NCBI GenBank assembly: GCA_012514535.1
Contig: JAAZAA010000088.1
Span: 1-39,724, forward strand
DNA: 39,724 nt
Origin: Myxococcales bacterium
GTDB lineage: Bacteria > Myxococcota_A > Polyangia > Polyangiales > Polyangiaceae
Direction of reading: 5' to 3'
Positions 34,437 to 39,724 of the stretch are shown one piece after another; the stretch's first letter is position 1; each line of letters begins with the position of its first letter. A model generated the notes under the pieces. The model was not told the DNA's origin. It searched no databases and worked only from the letters and a program-made list of their open reading frames with translations. The position numbers were made by a program, and so were the translations under genes.

Positions 34437-34955
34437 TCACCCCGACGATTCGACGGGGCGCGGAGCCCCTTCGCCGAGGGCGGCGAGGGCGGCACCCGCC
34501 ACCCGGAAGGTGGTCCACTCCCCGAGCGCGCTGGCTCCGAGCGACTCGTAGAAACGAATCGCGGGCGTGTTCCAGTCGAGCACCGCCCACTCGAGCCGTC
34601 CGCAGCCCCGCTGGACGGCGAGCCGCGCCACCGCCTGCAGGAGGGCCTTCCCGTGACCGTGGCCGCGCTCCTCGGGGAGCACGAACAGATCCTCCAGGTG
34701 GATGCCGGGCTTGCCGAGCCAGGTGGAGTAGGTCGGGAAGAAGAGCGCGAAGCCCACGGGGCGGCCCTCGACCTCACAGAGCAGGCACTCGAAGGGGGGC
34801 CGAGCCTGCCCCAGCTGCTCCCGGAGCACCTCGGGGCGGGTCACCACCGCGTCCGGCTCCCGCTCGTACTCGGCCAGCGCTCGGATGAAATCGAAGATGA
34901 CCGCGGCGTCGTCGGGCGTCGCGGGGCGGATCTGGCGCGCTCCGATCGGACTCAC
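34437..34955 (-). CDS. GNAT acetyltransferase, spermidine/diamine type
   Basis: 172 residues with a complete GNAT fold. The acetyl-CoA loop is LPEERGHGHGKALL, and the C-terminal strand-helix is WNTPAIRFYESLGA. EDLFVLPEERG together with LDWNTPAIRFY recalls spermidine/spermine or diamine N-acetyltransferases, so an amine substrate is likely though unproven. The start is a GTG that overlaps the stop of the DUF3570 gene (GTGA), with GGGAG three bases before it. It is the last gene of a five-gene overlapping unit. Confidence 0.87.
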   Translation of the reverse strand: MSPIGARQIRPATPDDAAVIFDFIRALAEYEREPDAVVTRPEVLREQLGQARPPFECLLCEVEGRPVGFALFFPTYSTWLGKPGIHLEDLFVLPEERGHGHGKALLQAVARLAVQRGCGRLEWAVLDWNTPAIRFYESLGASALGEWTTFRVAGAALAALGEGAPRPVESSG

Positions 34956-36208
34956 AGGCTCCCCGAGAGGGTCAGGGACATCACCCCCGCGAGGGTATCG
35001 TCCGGGCTCCTCCCCGCCCAGGTGAACTCGCGCAGGTCCGTCTTGATGAGATCGAGGGAGGCCCCCGCGGCGCCCTGCAGGAAGATCCCCAGCAGGCGGT
35101 CGCCAGCGCGTCGCTGCGTCGTCAGGAGCGCGCGCGCGCCCAAGGAGTAGCTGCGCAGCGGGCTCAGCTCCCGATCTCCCGTCCAGTACTGCCCCCGCGG
35201 ACCCGTGAGCGGCTCGCCCCCCGTGTAGTCGTCGCTCCAGAAGAGCACGCCCGTCTGCTGGTGCACGCGGGCGCGCCCGAGGAGGCGGAACCAAGGGGTC
35301 CAGTGCTTCTCCAAGGAGAGCTCGAAGGTGCCCGCCCACATGTCCCAGGTGTCGCGGTACAGGCGCGCGTCGGCGCCCCAGGCCGCCTGCCAGGAGCGCA
35401 CGAAGTATTTCGTGCGTAGCGCCAACGCCACGCGAGCCCGATTCTCCGGATGGTTCTCGAGGGCCGAGGCGCCCGACGGCGCGATGACCACCGCCCGGTA
35501 GGGGTTCTCCAAGAAGCCGTTCTGAAGCTGTCCCGTGAGCACCAGCTGGGTCGACAAAACCGGGGACCAGCTCTGCGTCCACGCCAGCTGCAGGTTGTCG
35601 AGAGCGATGTCCCGGGTCGCCCGACGTCCCTCCTCGCGGGCCCCCGCGGTGAAGCAGCCGCTCGAGGCGTCGAGGGGCTGCCGGGAGCTCGTCGGGAGGG
35701 TGGCGGAGAAGGCGCTCGTGCAGACGTCGTCGAAGCTGCGCACGTAGGCGAGATCGAGGCTCGTGTTCTTCTGGTTGAAGTCCGCGCCCGCGCCCACGCT
35801 GAAGGAGTGCGATCGGTAGTCGCTCTCCGTCCCGAACTGGTAGCCGCCGCTGAGCCGCGTGCGCCGGCGCTCGATGGAGAAGCCCCCTTGCGCGACGTGC
35901 CGCACGTCGTCGAAGGACGTGGCCGACGACACCACGTCGACCCCACCGAGCGGGCCTCCCTTGATGGCCTCCGTCGCCCCCGTCACGATGTCCGCGTCGT
36001 AGCCGGCGGAGACGGTCACGCTCTCCCCCACCCGCGCCGCGGTGCGCACGCCGGGGTGCAGCACGAGCAGCTGGCTCGAGCTGGAGGGCTCCACGAACAC
36101 CGTCATCCGCGCCTCGGAGTCCACCACCTGCGCGGACGCCGCGCCGGTGAGCGCGCAGGCACAGGCGAGCCCGAGCCCCGAGACGGCGCGCCTCAGTTGC
36201 ACCCGCAC
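34952..36208 (-). CDS. DUF3570 outer-membrane protein
   Basis: 418 residues. It has a signal peptide (cleaved after about residue 26, ALTGAASAQ) and many alternating amphipathic strands typical of a beta-barrel. The DUF3570 pattern is clear: GYDADIVTGAT, VDVVSSATSFDDVRH, LSGGYQFGTESDYRSHSFS and DFNQKNTSLDLAY. Members pair with DUF4266 lipoproteins, and here the DUF4266 gene sits immediately upstream and overlaps it by 16 bases. The GTG start is the only one that precedes the signal peptide. Pore or anchor function in the outer membrane is inferred. Confidence 0.9.
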   Translation of the reverse strand: MRVQLRRAVSGLGLACACALTGAASAQVVDSEARMTVFVEPSSSSQLLVLHPGVRTAARVGESVTVSAGYDADIVTGATEAIKGGPLGGVDVVSSATSFDDVRHVAQGGFSIERRRTRLSGGYQFGTESDYRSHSFSVGAGADFNQKNTSLDLAYVRSFDDVCTSAFSATLPTSSRQPLDASSGCFTAGAREEGRRATRDIALDNLQLAWTQSWSPVLSTQLVLTGQLQNGFLENPYRAVVIAPSGASALENHPENRARVALALRTKYFVRSWQAAWGADARLYRDTWDMWAGTFELSLEKHWTPWFRLLGRARVHQQTGVLFWSDDYTGGEPLTGPRGQYWTGDRELSPLRSYSLGARALLTTQRRAGDRLLGIFLQGAAGASLDLIKTDLREFTWAGRSPDDTLAGVMSLTLSGSL

Positions 36209-36476: not shown

Positions 36477-37292
36477 TCAAAAGTACGTGCCGAGCCCCGC
36501 CGTGTAGCTCTGCTCGTTGTCGTAAGAGTCCTCGGCGAAACGGACGAGGTTCGTGGCCTCCAGGCGCACCAGCATGCGCCAGCGCAGGGACACCAACAGG
36601 CCGCCCCCCGCGCGCACGTGGAACGACTTCAGCTGGTCGCGCACGACGTCGTCCCTCGGCTGCTCCAGGATGCCCCCGGCCCCCAACGAGAAGTACGGCG
36701 CCACGGACCAGTCCGGCGCGAAGTTCACCGCCAGCGCCCCGCCATAGAGCACCCGCCGACCGTCCCGCTGCAGGGCGACGCCGACGTAGGGCTCGATCGC
36801 GATCTCCGGCGCGAGGAACCACGCGGGGCGCACCTCGGCGAGGGCATCCCCCCCCAAGATCCCCCCCTGGAGGGTGAAGCCTCCCCAGGAGCCCTCGAGG
36901 GCGGGCGGCGCGAAGACGCCCGGTCGTCCCGCCGCCTCCGGCGCGTCCCGATCCAGGGCGATCCGCTCCACCGCGTCTCCCAGCACGAACGCGTGGCGTC
37001 CATCGGGGAGCGCCACCTCGAGCCAGTAGCCGCTCGTCTCCCGGCCGATGACGAGGAAGGTGTCACCGCGCGCGGCCCGCGCCACCAGCCGATGGGCGAG
37101 GCCCGGCCCGGAGCGGAGCTCGACCTCGTCCACGATCACCCGCGCGTAGGTCTCCGCCGAGCTCGCCGCGGACACCTCCAGCGGCGGCGCCGCTCCGCTC
37201 CACGAGGTCGCGCACAGCACCGCGAGCAGCCCTCCCCACGACAAGCGTCGCAGGAAGACTCTCAGCGTCGGCGCTCGTCCGTCCGTCCTCAT
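36477..37292 (-). CDS. SH3-domain protein with C-terminal outer-membrane barrel
   Basis: 271 residues. A signal-anchor-like N terminus (hydrophobic 17-33) is followed by a bacterial SH3 domain (about 50-112; VELRSGPGLAHRLV and GYWLEVALPDGRHAFV). Residues 135-271 are alternating strands ending in Phe (GLGTYF), as in small outer-membrane barrels of the OmpA/PagP size class. The ATG overlaps the stop of the upstream lipoprotein gene by four bases. SH3b domains often bind peptidoglycan, so it may link the cell wall to the outer membrane. Confidence 0.82.
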   Translation of the reverse strand: MRTDGRAPTLRVFLRRLSWGGLLAVLCATSWSGAAPPLEVSAASSAETYARVIVDEVELRSGPGLAHRLVARAARGDTFLVIGRETSGYWLEVALPDGRHAFVLGDAVERIALDRDAPEAAGRPGVFAPPALEGSWGGFTLQGGILGGDALAEVRPAWFLAPEIAIEPYVGVALQRDGRRVLYGGALAVNFAPDWSVAPYFSLGAGGILEQPRDDVVRDQLKSFHVRAGGGLLVSLRWRMLVRLEATNLVRFAEDSYDNEQSYTAGLGTYF

Positions 37293-37813
37293 TGGTCCGC
37301 GACCTGCGACGCCCACTGGCGGATCACCGCCGCGGCCTCGCTGTCCTCCTCGAAGATGGTCCGTGGGTGCGCCGCCCGACCGGTCGGCCGCGTGAGCAGG
37401 GGCGCGACGGTCGTGTCGAGCCGCATGCGCGCCTGGCTCGCCCGATAGTTCTGGCGTGCGGGCTCCGTGATGCTCCCGGGAGCCGGCACGACGCCTTCAC
37501 ACCCCTCCGCCACGAGGGGCGCGTAGTCCGTCAACCGATAGCTCGTCACGTTGGCGTGGCAGCCTCCGGTCGCATCTCCTCGACTCGGATCTCCCGCGCC
37601 GCAGGAGTGGGCGAAGAGCACGGGCTCGACCTCACAATAGAAATAGGCCTCGTCGAACAGCACGTCGGCGACGGCGAAGTTCGCTCCGGGATCCACCGTC
37701 GTCGGCAGCAGGCCCTCCTCACCGCAGCCCAGGCCCCAGGCCACGCCGGAGAGCGCGATCCCCACCCGCAGGGCCCCACGCACCGTCCGGCCCGCCGCCA
37801 AGCTCGAGAGCAT
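37289..37813 (-). CDS. Lipoprotein with wide-spaced CX13CH heme-like motif
   Basis: 174 residues (lipobox GLGC, Cys30). The mature part contains a pair, Cys71 and Cys85-His86, separated by 13 residues. The sequence after it (CHANVTSYRLTDYAPL) resembles the region after the heme site in short cytochrome c-like domains of secreted myxobacterial proteins. Cys60 and Cys105 could form a disulphide. Wide-spaced heme sites are known in a few cytochromes (CX15CH, CX17CH), so covalent heme is possible but unproven; zinc binding or plain disulphides are alternatives. It is the first gene of the overlapping DUF3570/DUF4266 unit. No ribosome site precedes the ATG, and a promoter places the transcript start near the ATG, suggesting a leaderless mRNA. 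Confidence 0.72.
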   Translation of the reverse strand: MLSSLAAGRTVRGALRVGIALSGVAWGLGCGEEGLLPTTVDPGANFAVADVLFDEAYFYCEVEPVLFAHSCGAGDPSRGDATGGCHANVTSYRLTDYAPLVAEGCEGVVPAPGSITEPARQNYRASQARMRLDTTVAPLLTRPTGRAAHPRTIFEEDSEAAAVIRQWASQVADQ

Positions 37814-38190: not shown

Positions 38191-38367
38191 ATGAGCCTGA
38201 AGCCCTGGTATCTCGTCGTCCCTGGCGCACTCGCCCTCCTGGCCCTCACGGGGACCATGGGTGCCCAGCTGGCCATCCTCGGAGTTACGCTGGGCATCTT
38301 CTTCGGGACGCTGTCCCTGGGTCGGACGCAACCCGGCGACGCGACGTCCACCAGCCCCGGTCACTGA
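38191..38367 (+). CDS. Small membrane protein
   Basis: 58 residues with two closely spaced hydrophobic segments (about 5-22 and 25-43) and a polar Thr/Ser/Gly tail. GGAGAG lies four bases before the ATG, a good ribosome site, and the frame upstream lacks one. The RelA/SpoT-like gene begins 23 bp after its stop, so they may be co-transcribed. No family is recognised. Confidence 0.65.
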   Translation: MSLKPWYLVVPGALALLALTGTMGAQLAILGVTLGIFFGTLSLGRTQPGDATSTSPGH

Positions 38368-38390
38368 CTGGGTAGCGGGTTCGAGACGCC

Positions 38391-39488
38391 GTGGCTCGCG
38401 AACGACTTTCCCGGGGGGGTCCCCCGCGCCGCTCGAGCGCCCCTCCCCGCCTCCGAGAGAGCTCCGATTTCCTGCTCCACGATCTCGAGGCGGTGCGCCT
38501 GGTGCTCCAGGGCGAGAGCGTCATCGACTGGCATCGCCTCAACTTCACGTCCGAGGACGACGCGCGGCGGCTGATCGAGAACCACGAGCTGCGTCTCGAC
38601 GATCCCTCGGATCTCGCCTTCATGGAGCGCGTCAAGGAGGACGCGATCTCCTACCTCCGGCGAAACTTCGCCCTCGCGATCCCCAAGCCGGTCGAGCAGG
38701 CGAGCATCCTGGAGCTCCTCACGATGGCCGCCGGCAAGGGACACCGGCAGCTGTGCGCCTGCACGATCTTGAAGACCGTGCACATCATCAATCACATGGC
38801 GGGCCGGGAGCTCCTGTTCCGCCTGCCCGTGAGCGACCGCGACCTCTTCCATCTCGTCGAGGAGAAGGTCTACCGCGTCGTCGGGGCGATGCTGAGCGGC
38901 GGCTTCCCCATCACGGAGTTCATCGGGGGCCGAAAGAACCTCGACTCGACGTACACGAAGCTCCTGTCCAAGCGGGAGTCCACGGCCGCCGCCCTCTACG
39001 ACAAACTGCGCTTCCGCATCGTCACCCGGACGAAGGACGACATTCTCCCGATCCTGCTCTACCTCACGGAGCACCTCTTCCCCTTCAACTACATCGTCCC
39101 GCGGGAGAGCACGAACACCCTGTTCCCCTTCCGCGAATACTGCAGCCAGGATCCGCACCTGATGCGCCTGCTGGAGCGCTCGCAGGGGGAGCCGGACAAG
39201 AACACCCTCGCCGTCGACAACCAGTTCAGCGCTCCGACCTACCGGGTGATCCACTTCGTGACGGACGTGCCCGTGCGCGTGCCGAGCCACATCATGGAGT
39301 CCGCCCCGCCCGGCTCGGAGACCCTGGGGCCGATCGTCTACATGCTGTGCGAGTTCCAGATGCTGGACGCGGAGACGGACGCCGCCAACGAGATCGGCGA
39401 GGCCAGTCACGACGCCTACAAGCGCCGCCAGCGAGAGGCCGTGTTCCGGCGCCTGCGCCTGGGCGCCCGCTCGAAGCTGTCGAGCTGA
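38391..39488 (+). CDS. TIGR04552-type protein with RelA/SpoT synthetase-like motifs
   Basis: 365 residues, soluble. I believe it belongs to the conserved TIGR04552 family of myxobacteria. Reading the C-terminal half against RelA/SpoT synthetase domains gives the motifs in the right order. GRKNLDSTYTK (180-190) resembles GRxKxxYSIYxKM; DKLRFRIV (204-211) the D..A.R.I metal-binding strand; NYIVPR (233-238) the DYI.PK loop; YRVIHF (284-289) the YQSLHT loop; EFQ (321-323) EVQIRT, with its catalytic Glu kept; and NEIGEASHDAYK (333-344) AExGxAAHWxYK. This suggests a nucleotide pyrophosphotransferase fold without hydrolase, TGS or ACT domains. The N-terminal 170 residues are helical and unknown. A GTG start is used; no ATG lies near. 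The activity is inferred. Confidence 0.85.
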   Translation: MARERLSRGGPPRRSSAPPRLRESSDFLLHDLEAVRLVLQGESVIDWHRLNFTSEDDARRLIENHELRLDDPSDLAFMERVKEDAISYLRRNFALAIPKPVEQASILELLTMAAGKGHRQLCACTILKTVHIINHMAGRELLFRLPVSDRDLFHLVEEKVYRVVGAMLSGGFPITEFIGGRKNLDSTYTKLLSKRESTAAALYDKLRFRIVTRTKDDILPILLYLTEHLFPFNYIVPRESTNTLFPFREYCSQDPHLMRLLERSQGEPDKNTLAVDNQFSAPTYRVIHFVTDVPVRVPSHIMESAPPGSETLGPIVYMLCEFQMLDAETDAANEIGEASHDAYKRRQREAVFRRLRLGARSKLSS

Positions 39489-39724
39489 GCCTCAGCCGTC
39501 CCCCATCCCCGATAATACGTCAGGCGCGGGCGCCGCCCGTCAAGCTCGGCCGCTCCCCTGATAGCCAGCGGCGAGGCTTTCGCGAGCACCGGAGCGCAGC
39601 CCCCATGGAACCGAGGTGCACGAAGTCCAGCACGCTGGACGGAGTGCACGGAGGCCTACGGCCCTCGGATGGGCCTCCGACGTGGTCGACTCGAGCGAGG
39701 CACCACGGCCCGTGCTGGGCGCAC
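39489..39724. other. Window end, intergenic
   Basis: After the RelA/SpoT-like gene the window holds 33 bp, repeat copy B, and 60 bp containing short inverted repeats (GTGGT/ACCAC near 39682-39706). A minus-strand open frame covering the repeat is shared with copy A, but it reflects the conserved repeat rather than a supported gene. Confidence 0.5.
39522..39664 (+). repeat. Dispersed repeat, copy B (143 bp)
   Basis: Same length and orientation as copy A (11541-11683), about 28 kb away, with three substitutions found. The symmetric core is at 39616-39649: GTGCAC ends, GTCCAGC and GCTGGAC inner arms. It begins 33 bp after the stop of the RelA/SpoT-like gene, so here it could act in the 3' untranslated region. 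The 8-bp-arm hairpin and tandem duplication found after copy A are absent. Confidence 0.9.

Follow-up and report, generated by a model that had tools for sequence, protein, structure and literature searches.

The gene and its family

The window analysed here is the whole stretch of 39,724 nucleotides of contig JAAZAA010000088.1 from a Myxococcales bacterium. Its final gene, located on the forward strand and followed by 236 further bases, encodes a protein that is a member of the TIGR04552 family (Table 1). Comparison with the closest relatives revealed purifying selection on this coding ORF (dN 0.20-0.27 vs dS 0.71-1.16). The start codon is uncertain, since the family alignment starts only around residues 21-29 and some relatives have no ATG, GTG or TTG nearby upstream. 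An antisense ORF that overlaps the gene (38361-39410) was not taken as a gene, such ORFs being a common by-product of high-GC coding DNA.

Table 1. Features of the TIGR04552 gene and of its predicted product (positions in the window).
Feature	Position	Strand	Remarks
TIGR04552-family protein, predicted divergent RelA/SpoT-fold nucleotidyltransferase with N-terminal helical domain	38391..39488	+	365 aa, GTG start (uncertain)
N-terminal all-helical domain, residues 21-148	38451..38834	+	pLDDT 86 in the AlphaFold model
RelA/SpoT (SYNTH) domain, residues ~147-350	38829..39440	+	matches RelQ, RelP, Rel and RelA structures
Predicted ATP-phosphate motif GGRKNLDSTYTKLLSK (179-194), counterpart of RelSeq GRPKHIYSIYRKM	38925..38972	+	K182, S186, K190 and K194 invariant
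DKLRFR (204-209): predicted Mg2+ ligand D204 and adenine-stacking R209 (RelSeq D264, R269)	39000..39017	+	both invariant
Putatively rebuilt G-loop region, N233 to Y284	39087..39242	+	flanking lysines lost; Y284 corresponds to the stacking Tyr
EFQMLD...EIGEASHDAYKRRQ (321-347): predicted second Mg2+ ligand E321	39351..39431	+	family alignment, RelSeq counterpart E323

Membership in TIGR04552 is defined by a score above the curated cut-off of 125 bits over the full model, and the window protein scores 324.4 bits (E-value 9.6e-97, model positions 3-350 of 352). The sister model TIGR04562 is matched almost as well (E-value 3.7e-92), far over its cut-off. Both models are named by number alone, with no function in the name. 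Relatives of TIGR04552 were found across Myxococcota, and the family is also annotated in Bdellovibrio. The first-pass annotation spoke of a nucleotidyltransferase hidden in a conserved myxobacterial family; the family is not hidden in the sense of lacking a name, as it is in NCBIfam.

In the open-access literature searched we found only one incidental mention of TIGR04552/TIGR04562, in a mutation table (PMC9888234), and no paper stating the relationship of TIGR04552 to RelA/SpoT; we do not claim that this link has escaped others. The main text of the 2011 RSH classification by Atkinson (PMC3153485) contains no mention of Myxococcus, Bdellovibrio or Deltaproteobacteria written as one word. According to that table, from a 2023 paper, the TIGR04552 gene of Bdellovibrio sp. 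NC01 lost a single base in one evolved line, and this deletion rose to a frequency of >75% there (PMC9888234), so the gene is dispensable in that strain.

Relationship to RelA/SpoT synthetases

The Pfam RelA_SpoT model (PF04607) reports the window protein alone with 19.7 bits (E-value 0.0011), i.e. below the gathering score of 27 bits, hence the protein should be regarded as a divergent homologue and not as a member of the curated family. The analysis was extended to 57 diverse members of TIGR04552 with 25-75% identity to the window protein; the same set underlies the conservation counts given below. Scanned singly, 56 of them matched RelA_SpoT at E <= 0.1 (best E-value 6.7e-8), while no other Pfam family was matched by more than one member. 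Unlike the score of the single protein, this family-wide evidence is decisive.

The profile of the family, compared with all PDB sequences, retrieved 11 entries, 10 of which are (p)ppGpp synthetases, with RelSeq (1vj7) as the best match (E-value 1e-4). The alignment to 1vj7 comprises two collinear stretches, K-x3-S-x3-K...D-x4-R followed by E-x-Q...H-x2-Y-K. The hhalign comparison with the synthetase domains of myxobacterial Rel proteins yielded a score of 58.9 (probability 93.7%, E-value 1.9e-7, 131 columns), whereas the controls gave at most 24.2 (40 column shuffles), 15.0 (reversed alignment) and 12.6-21.8 (nine unrelated neighbour families). This confirms that the resemblance to RelA/SpoT is far over the chance level.

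The AlphaFold2 model, built from an alignment of 48 sequences, has a pLDDT of 85.8 and a pTM of 0.85. In a Foldseek search of the PDB, the best 50 matches were all alarmone synthetases (best E-value 1.5e-5). VIA-align superimposed residues 146-345 of this predicted model on RelQ with bound pppGpp (Z-score 10.7, rmsd 3.5 over 145 residues), followed by B. subtilis Rel (10.4), RelSeq (9.6), CapRel (6.1) and Tas1 (5.5). The first unrelated fold was that of DNA polymerase lambda (6.1), with the polymerase-beta-like structures at 6.1 and lower. Both the homology and the fold are therefore assigned with near certainty: the C-terminal half of the window protein has the fold of alarmone synthetases (SYNTH). 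A prediction with a different fold had been named in the first-pass annotation as grounds for abandoning its reading; the fold that was predicted is that of RelA/SpoT synthetases, with RelQ at the top of the VIA-align results.

The N-terminal domain contains three invariant residues (G41, S43 and D46). In addition, one long helix carries a stripe of conserved polar residues, C124/K128/H131/H135/R139, which by arithmetic from the positions falls within ~80 degrees. Pfam reports no HD domain in the window protein, and the possibility that the N-terminal domain is a shrunken HD hydrolase received no support (hhalign probability 0.6% against 31 HD regions of Rel proteins). Searches of the PDB with this domain alone gave a best Foldseek E-value of 3.1 and VIA Z-scores <= 3.1, which does not prove a new fold; several weak Foldseek matches to MazG-like pyrophosphatases (E-values > 3) were given no weight. 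We infer that the domain, with its Lys/His/Arg stripe, either regulates the enzyme or aids in the binding of the acceptor.

Donor and acceptor sides of the putative active site

Work on SaRelP and RelSeq assigned the contacts to the ATP phosphates to Lys80, Ser84 and Lys88, and the Mg2+ ligands to Asp107 and Glu174 (PMC5794853, PMC7983052). Their predicted counterparts in the window protein are K182, S186 and K190, and D204 and E321, respectively, with the register of the K-x3-S-x3-K motif and of the Mg2+ ligands taken from the PDB-profile and hhalign alignments. All five residues, as well as R209, the counterpart of the second adenine-stacking Arg (RelSeq R269), are present in 57/57 members. 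The block around E321 additionally contains the invariant residues Q323, D326, H340, Y343, R346 and Q347 (RelSeq Q325, H342 and Y345 are among the counterparts). The first adenine-stacking residue appears to be shifted: K182 corresponds to RelSeq K243 in the profile alignment, so that Arg241 lands on G180, with R181 (conserved in 54 of the 57 members) one position later. Altogether, the donor side appears largely standard and catalytically complete.

The invariance of the catalytic residues makes it probable that the family is active in pyrophosphotransfer from ATP. The alternative, a catalytically dead or regulatory nucleotide-binding relative, would be consistent with the apparent loss of one adenine-stacking Arg and with that of both acceptor-side lysines (see below), but we consider it very unlikely, as a pseudoenzyme would not be expected to keep K182, S186, K190, D204 and E321 without exception in sequences that range from 25% to 75% identity. 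These conserved catalytic residues and the predicted fold lend support to the first-pass interpretation of the protein as a divergent RelA/SpoT-like nucleotidyltransferase, including its statement that the catalytic D204 and E321 are retained.

The acceptor side, unlike the donor side, appears to be rebuilt, judging from the alignments. The two Tyr positions that delimit the G-loop are separated by 42-67 residues in the family, compared to 9 in the canonical, including myxobacterial, Rel. The counterpart of the guanine-stacking Tyr (RelSeq Y308) is Y284, occupied by Y in 50, F in 6 and N in 1 of the 57 members, while position 288 is occupied by H in 48, N in 5 and Q in 4. The NYIVPR motif aligns with the KDYIAxPK block, with the preceding Lys replaced by F or W and the following one mostly by G, R, A or S. 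The corresponding lysines that flank the G-loop (RelSeq K297 and K304) are K in all 23 readable myxobacterial Rel sequences and are absent from TIGR04552. The first of them discriminates poorly within the superfamily, since RelA-type enzymes have an acidic EFDD instead of RFKD (PMC3153485). In addition, A335 of RelSeq, which contacts guanosine (PMC7983052), corresponds to Asn333 of the window protein in the family-profile alignment to the PDB.

The six motifs on which the first-pass annotation was built are all present in the ORF, in the order in which they were listed. Their detailed reading needs correction at three points: R181 is off by one from the Arg241 site, H288 is not invariant, and the lysines that flank NYIVPR are not kept. 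Likewise, the five residues singled out there for conservation, R181, K182, D204, H288 and E321, are conserved with the exception of H288, which varies in part.

With K297 and K304 lost, the G-loop rebuilt, and Arg241 aligned with a Gly and R181 one position off, neither the use of GDP/GTP nor the standard mode of ATP binding is assured. The altered acceptor side would be compatible with (p)ppGpp synthesis as well as with the new signalling chemistry suggested in the first-pass annotation. It is possible, and we hold this reading tentatively, that TIGR04552 members are true (p)ppGpp synthetases with GDP/GTP as the acceptor, which would feed the stringent response of myxobacteria by a second route that does not depend on the ribosome. 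The closest folds are RelQ and Rel rather than the tRNA-modifying CapRel or Tas1, and the position of the guanine-stacking Tyr is Y or F in 56/57 members; against it stand the loss of both acceptor-side lysines, the length of the loop and the Asn at the guanosine-contacting position. A different nucleotide, such as ATP, ADP or AMP (yielding (p)ppApp), or another metabolite could serve as the acceptor, as alarmone synthetases with adenosine acceptors exist (PMC12691689) and the acceptor loop differs from that of the myxobacterial Rel. We identified in the family no sequence features specific to adenosine-using enzymes, and the pppApp makers that we considered are mostly toxins, with a genomic setting unlike that of TIGR04552 (see below), which leaves this option unlikely.

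Genomic context, putative function and related systems

A TIGR04552 gene (match over the cut-off) was found in 168 of the 284 sampled Myxococcota genomes, nearly always in a single copy. Among the genomes listed without a match, those nearest to the genome of the window share its class, and the genomes drawn from the same family and the same order appear to be all positive. The genome of the window also encodes one canonical Rel (HD and SYNTH domains) on another contig, so that TIGR04552 supplements Rel there instead of replacing it. In another Myxococcota genome (G045, 95% complete), TIGR04552 is matched with an E-value of 3.6e-86, while the best match of canonical RelA_SpoT has an E-value of only 0.09; this may be due to a missing contig or to a true loss of Rel. 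Three relatives (L062, L065 and L066) form a very divergent second branch (25-29% identity to the window protein), in which the catalytic residues are kept, VGVR is found in place of LRFR, and the F-x-GG-R strand is replaced by F-E-x-K with an extra residue.

The window ends in 127 bases (39598-39724) that are identical to positions 1-127 of another contig of the same genome (C196), so the two are neighbours split by the assembler. Downstream, on C196 and in the same direction, follow genes for DUF507, yicC, gmk (guanylate kinase), mtnP and pfkB. DUF507 and gmk are found downstream in 15 of 44 relatives (yicC was detected in 11 of these 15), while in 18 others a lon-type protease gene is nearby, nearly always upstream and divergent. 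On the tree of the relatives each of these contexts clusters, with about two changes, indicating that the gene order is inherited. The linkage to gmk was therefore rejected as a proof of function, as it tracks the phylogeny. The presence of guanylate kinase, which makes GDP, downstream of the gene in one lineage would agree with the synthesis of (p)ppGpp and is suggestive of guanosine metabolism, but it is not functional evidence. Upstream of the gene lie two ORFs on the reverse strand (34952-36208 and 36477-37316), whose order with it is kept in 11 relatives. Going by the relative L002, on which the families were assigned, they encode a homologue of a DUF3570 protein and one of a protein with an SH3_3 domain.

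Searches for mobile or viral links reported no plasmid match, no PHROGs match, and no BFVD match at E <= 0.001. A phage origin was rejected, because the sole phage match, in Microcystis phage MaAM05, is flanked by the bacterial housekeeping genes mtgA, glyS, gatD and secDF. This entry (MW495066.1, 273,876 bases), which encodes a relative with 26% identity amid mtgA, glyS, gatD and secF/secDF (117543-130607), looks like a fragment of a bacterial chromosome deposited as a phage.

A role in defence or as a toxin was likewise rejected, the window protein having no PADLOC match, and neither an antitoxin-like neighbour nor a fused neutralising domain was found in the conserved contexts (lon, or DUF507-yicC-gmk-mtnP-pfkB). 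This bears on another candidate acceptor, an RNA (for example tRNA) whose 3' end would be pyrophosphorylated or otherwise modified as by toxSAS enzymes, with the long loop and the N-terminal domain binding the RNA. FaRel2, PhRel2 and CapRel, which possess the RelA/SpoT fold, modify the CCA ends of tRNA (PMC11559606), and an acceptor of larger size might be accommodated by the rebuilt loop together with the basic stripe of the N-terminal domain. The vertical and usually single-copy inheritance, the missing antitoxin-like neighbour and PADLOC match, and the lower structural similarity of CapRel compared to RelQ or Rel make this rather improbable.

We propose that TIGR04552 members are most likely ATP-dependent 3'-pyrophosphokinases with a housekeeping signalling role; that they are divergent RelA/SpoT-fold enzymes acting in housekeeping or stress signalling alongside the canonical Rel seems probable. 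In the proposed reaction, an acceptor positioned over Tyr284 would receive the beta,gamma-pyrophosphate of ATP on its 3'-OH. This acceptor would be a nucleotide, with GDP/GTP as the likeliest single choice, and would be gripped otherwise than in Rel or RelQ, given the G-loop of ~5 times the length and the absence of two conserved lysines. The enzyme would operate alongside the canonical Rel, which is bifunctional. A role as a toxin is unlikely, because the gene occurs phylum-wide, is inherited vertically and usually in one copy, and has no partner gene. That the acceptor is something other than GDP/GTP, so that these housekeeping pyrophosphokinases would make another 3'-pyrophosphorylated nucleotide or RNA end, is in our opinion somewhat doubtful; if true, Myxococcota and Bdellovibrionota would possess a signalling branch distinct from their Rel-dependent stringent response.

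Fruiting-body development of Myxococcus is triggered by starvation signalling credited to (p)ppGpp, with RelA named as the source (review: PMC12288465). A second, phylum-wide enzyme of the synthetase fold with a seemingly intact catalytic core is, as far as we found, not part of that picture. If TIGR04552 makes (p)ppGpp, the genetics of the stringent response will have to be reconsidered for these predatory and social bacteria. If the acceptor is a different one, the outcome would be a new alarmone, or a modification of RNA, that does not belong to a toxin system. In both cases, a family so far annotated by number only becomes directly testable by a standard assay. For the present, we regard TIGR04552 as a named, uncharacterised family of predicted RelA/SpoT-fold proteins with an unmatched N-terminal domain and an apparently rebuilt acceptor loop.

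Among the known systems, the small synthetases RelQ/SasB and RelP/SasA (5ded, 5dec, 6fgk, 6ewz) are among the best structural matches (Z-scores 9.4-10.7) and share with the window protein the catalytic frame of K-S-K, Asp, Arg, Glu and Tyr. They differ in that the window protein has 365 aa, an N-terminal helical domain and an insert of 42-67 residues for the short G-loop, with only ~17-19% identity over the aligned part. The long RSH proteins Rel, RelA and SpoT (1vj7, 24io, 8acu) include the best sequence match, 1vj7, in which the H-x-x-Y-K ending aligns as well. In contrast to them, the window protein has no detected HD, TGS or ACT domain (no Pfam match to TGS or ACT, and the protein ends 18 residues past the last motif) and does not have the KDY and PK lysines, which are conserved in the myxobacterial Rel. 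The first-pass remark that neither the flanking domains of Rel nor the architecture of the classical small SAS fit this protein thus agrees with our results. The toxSAS/CapRel tRNA pyrophosphokinases and the Tas1-type pppApp synthetases share the overall fold (Z-scores 6.1 and 5.5), but the TIGR04552 gene differs from theirs in being phylum-wide, vertically inherited and usually single-copy, with no antitoxin, immunity or secretion context seen.
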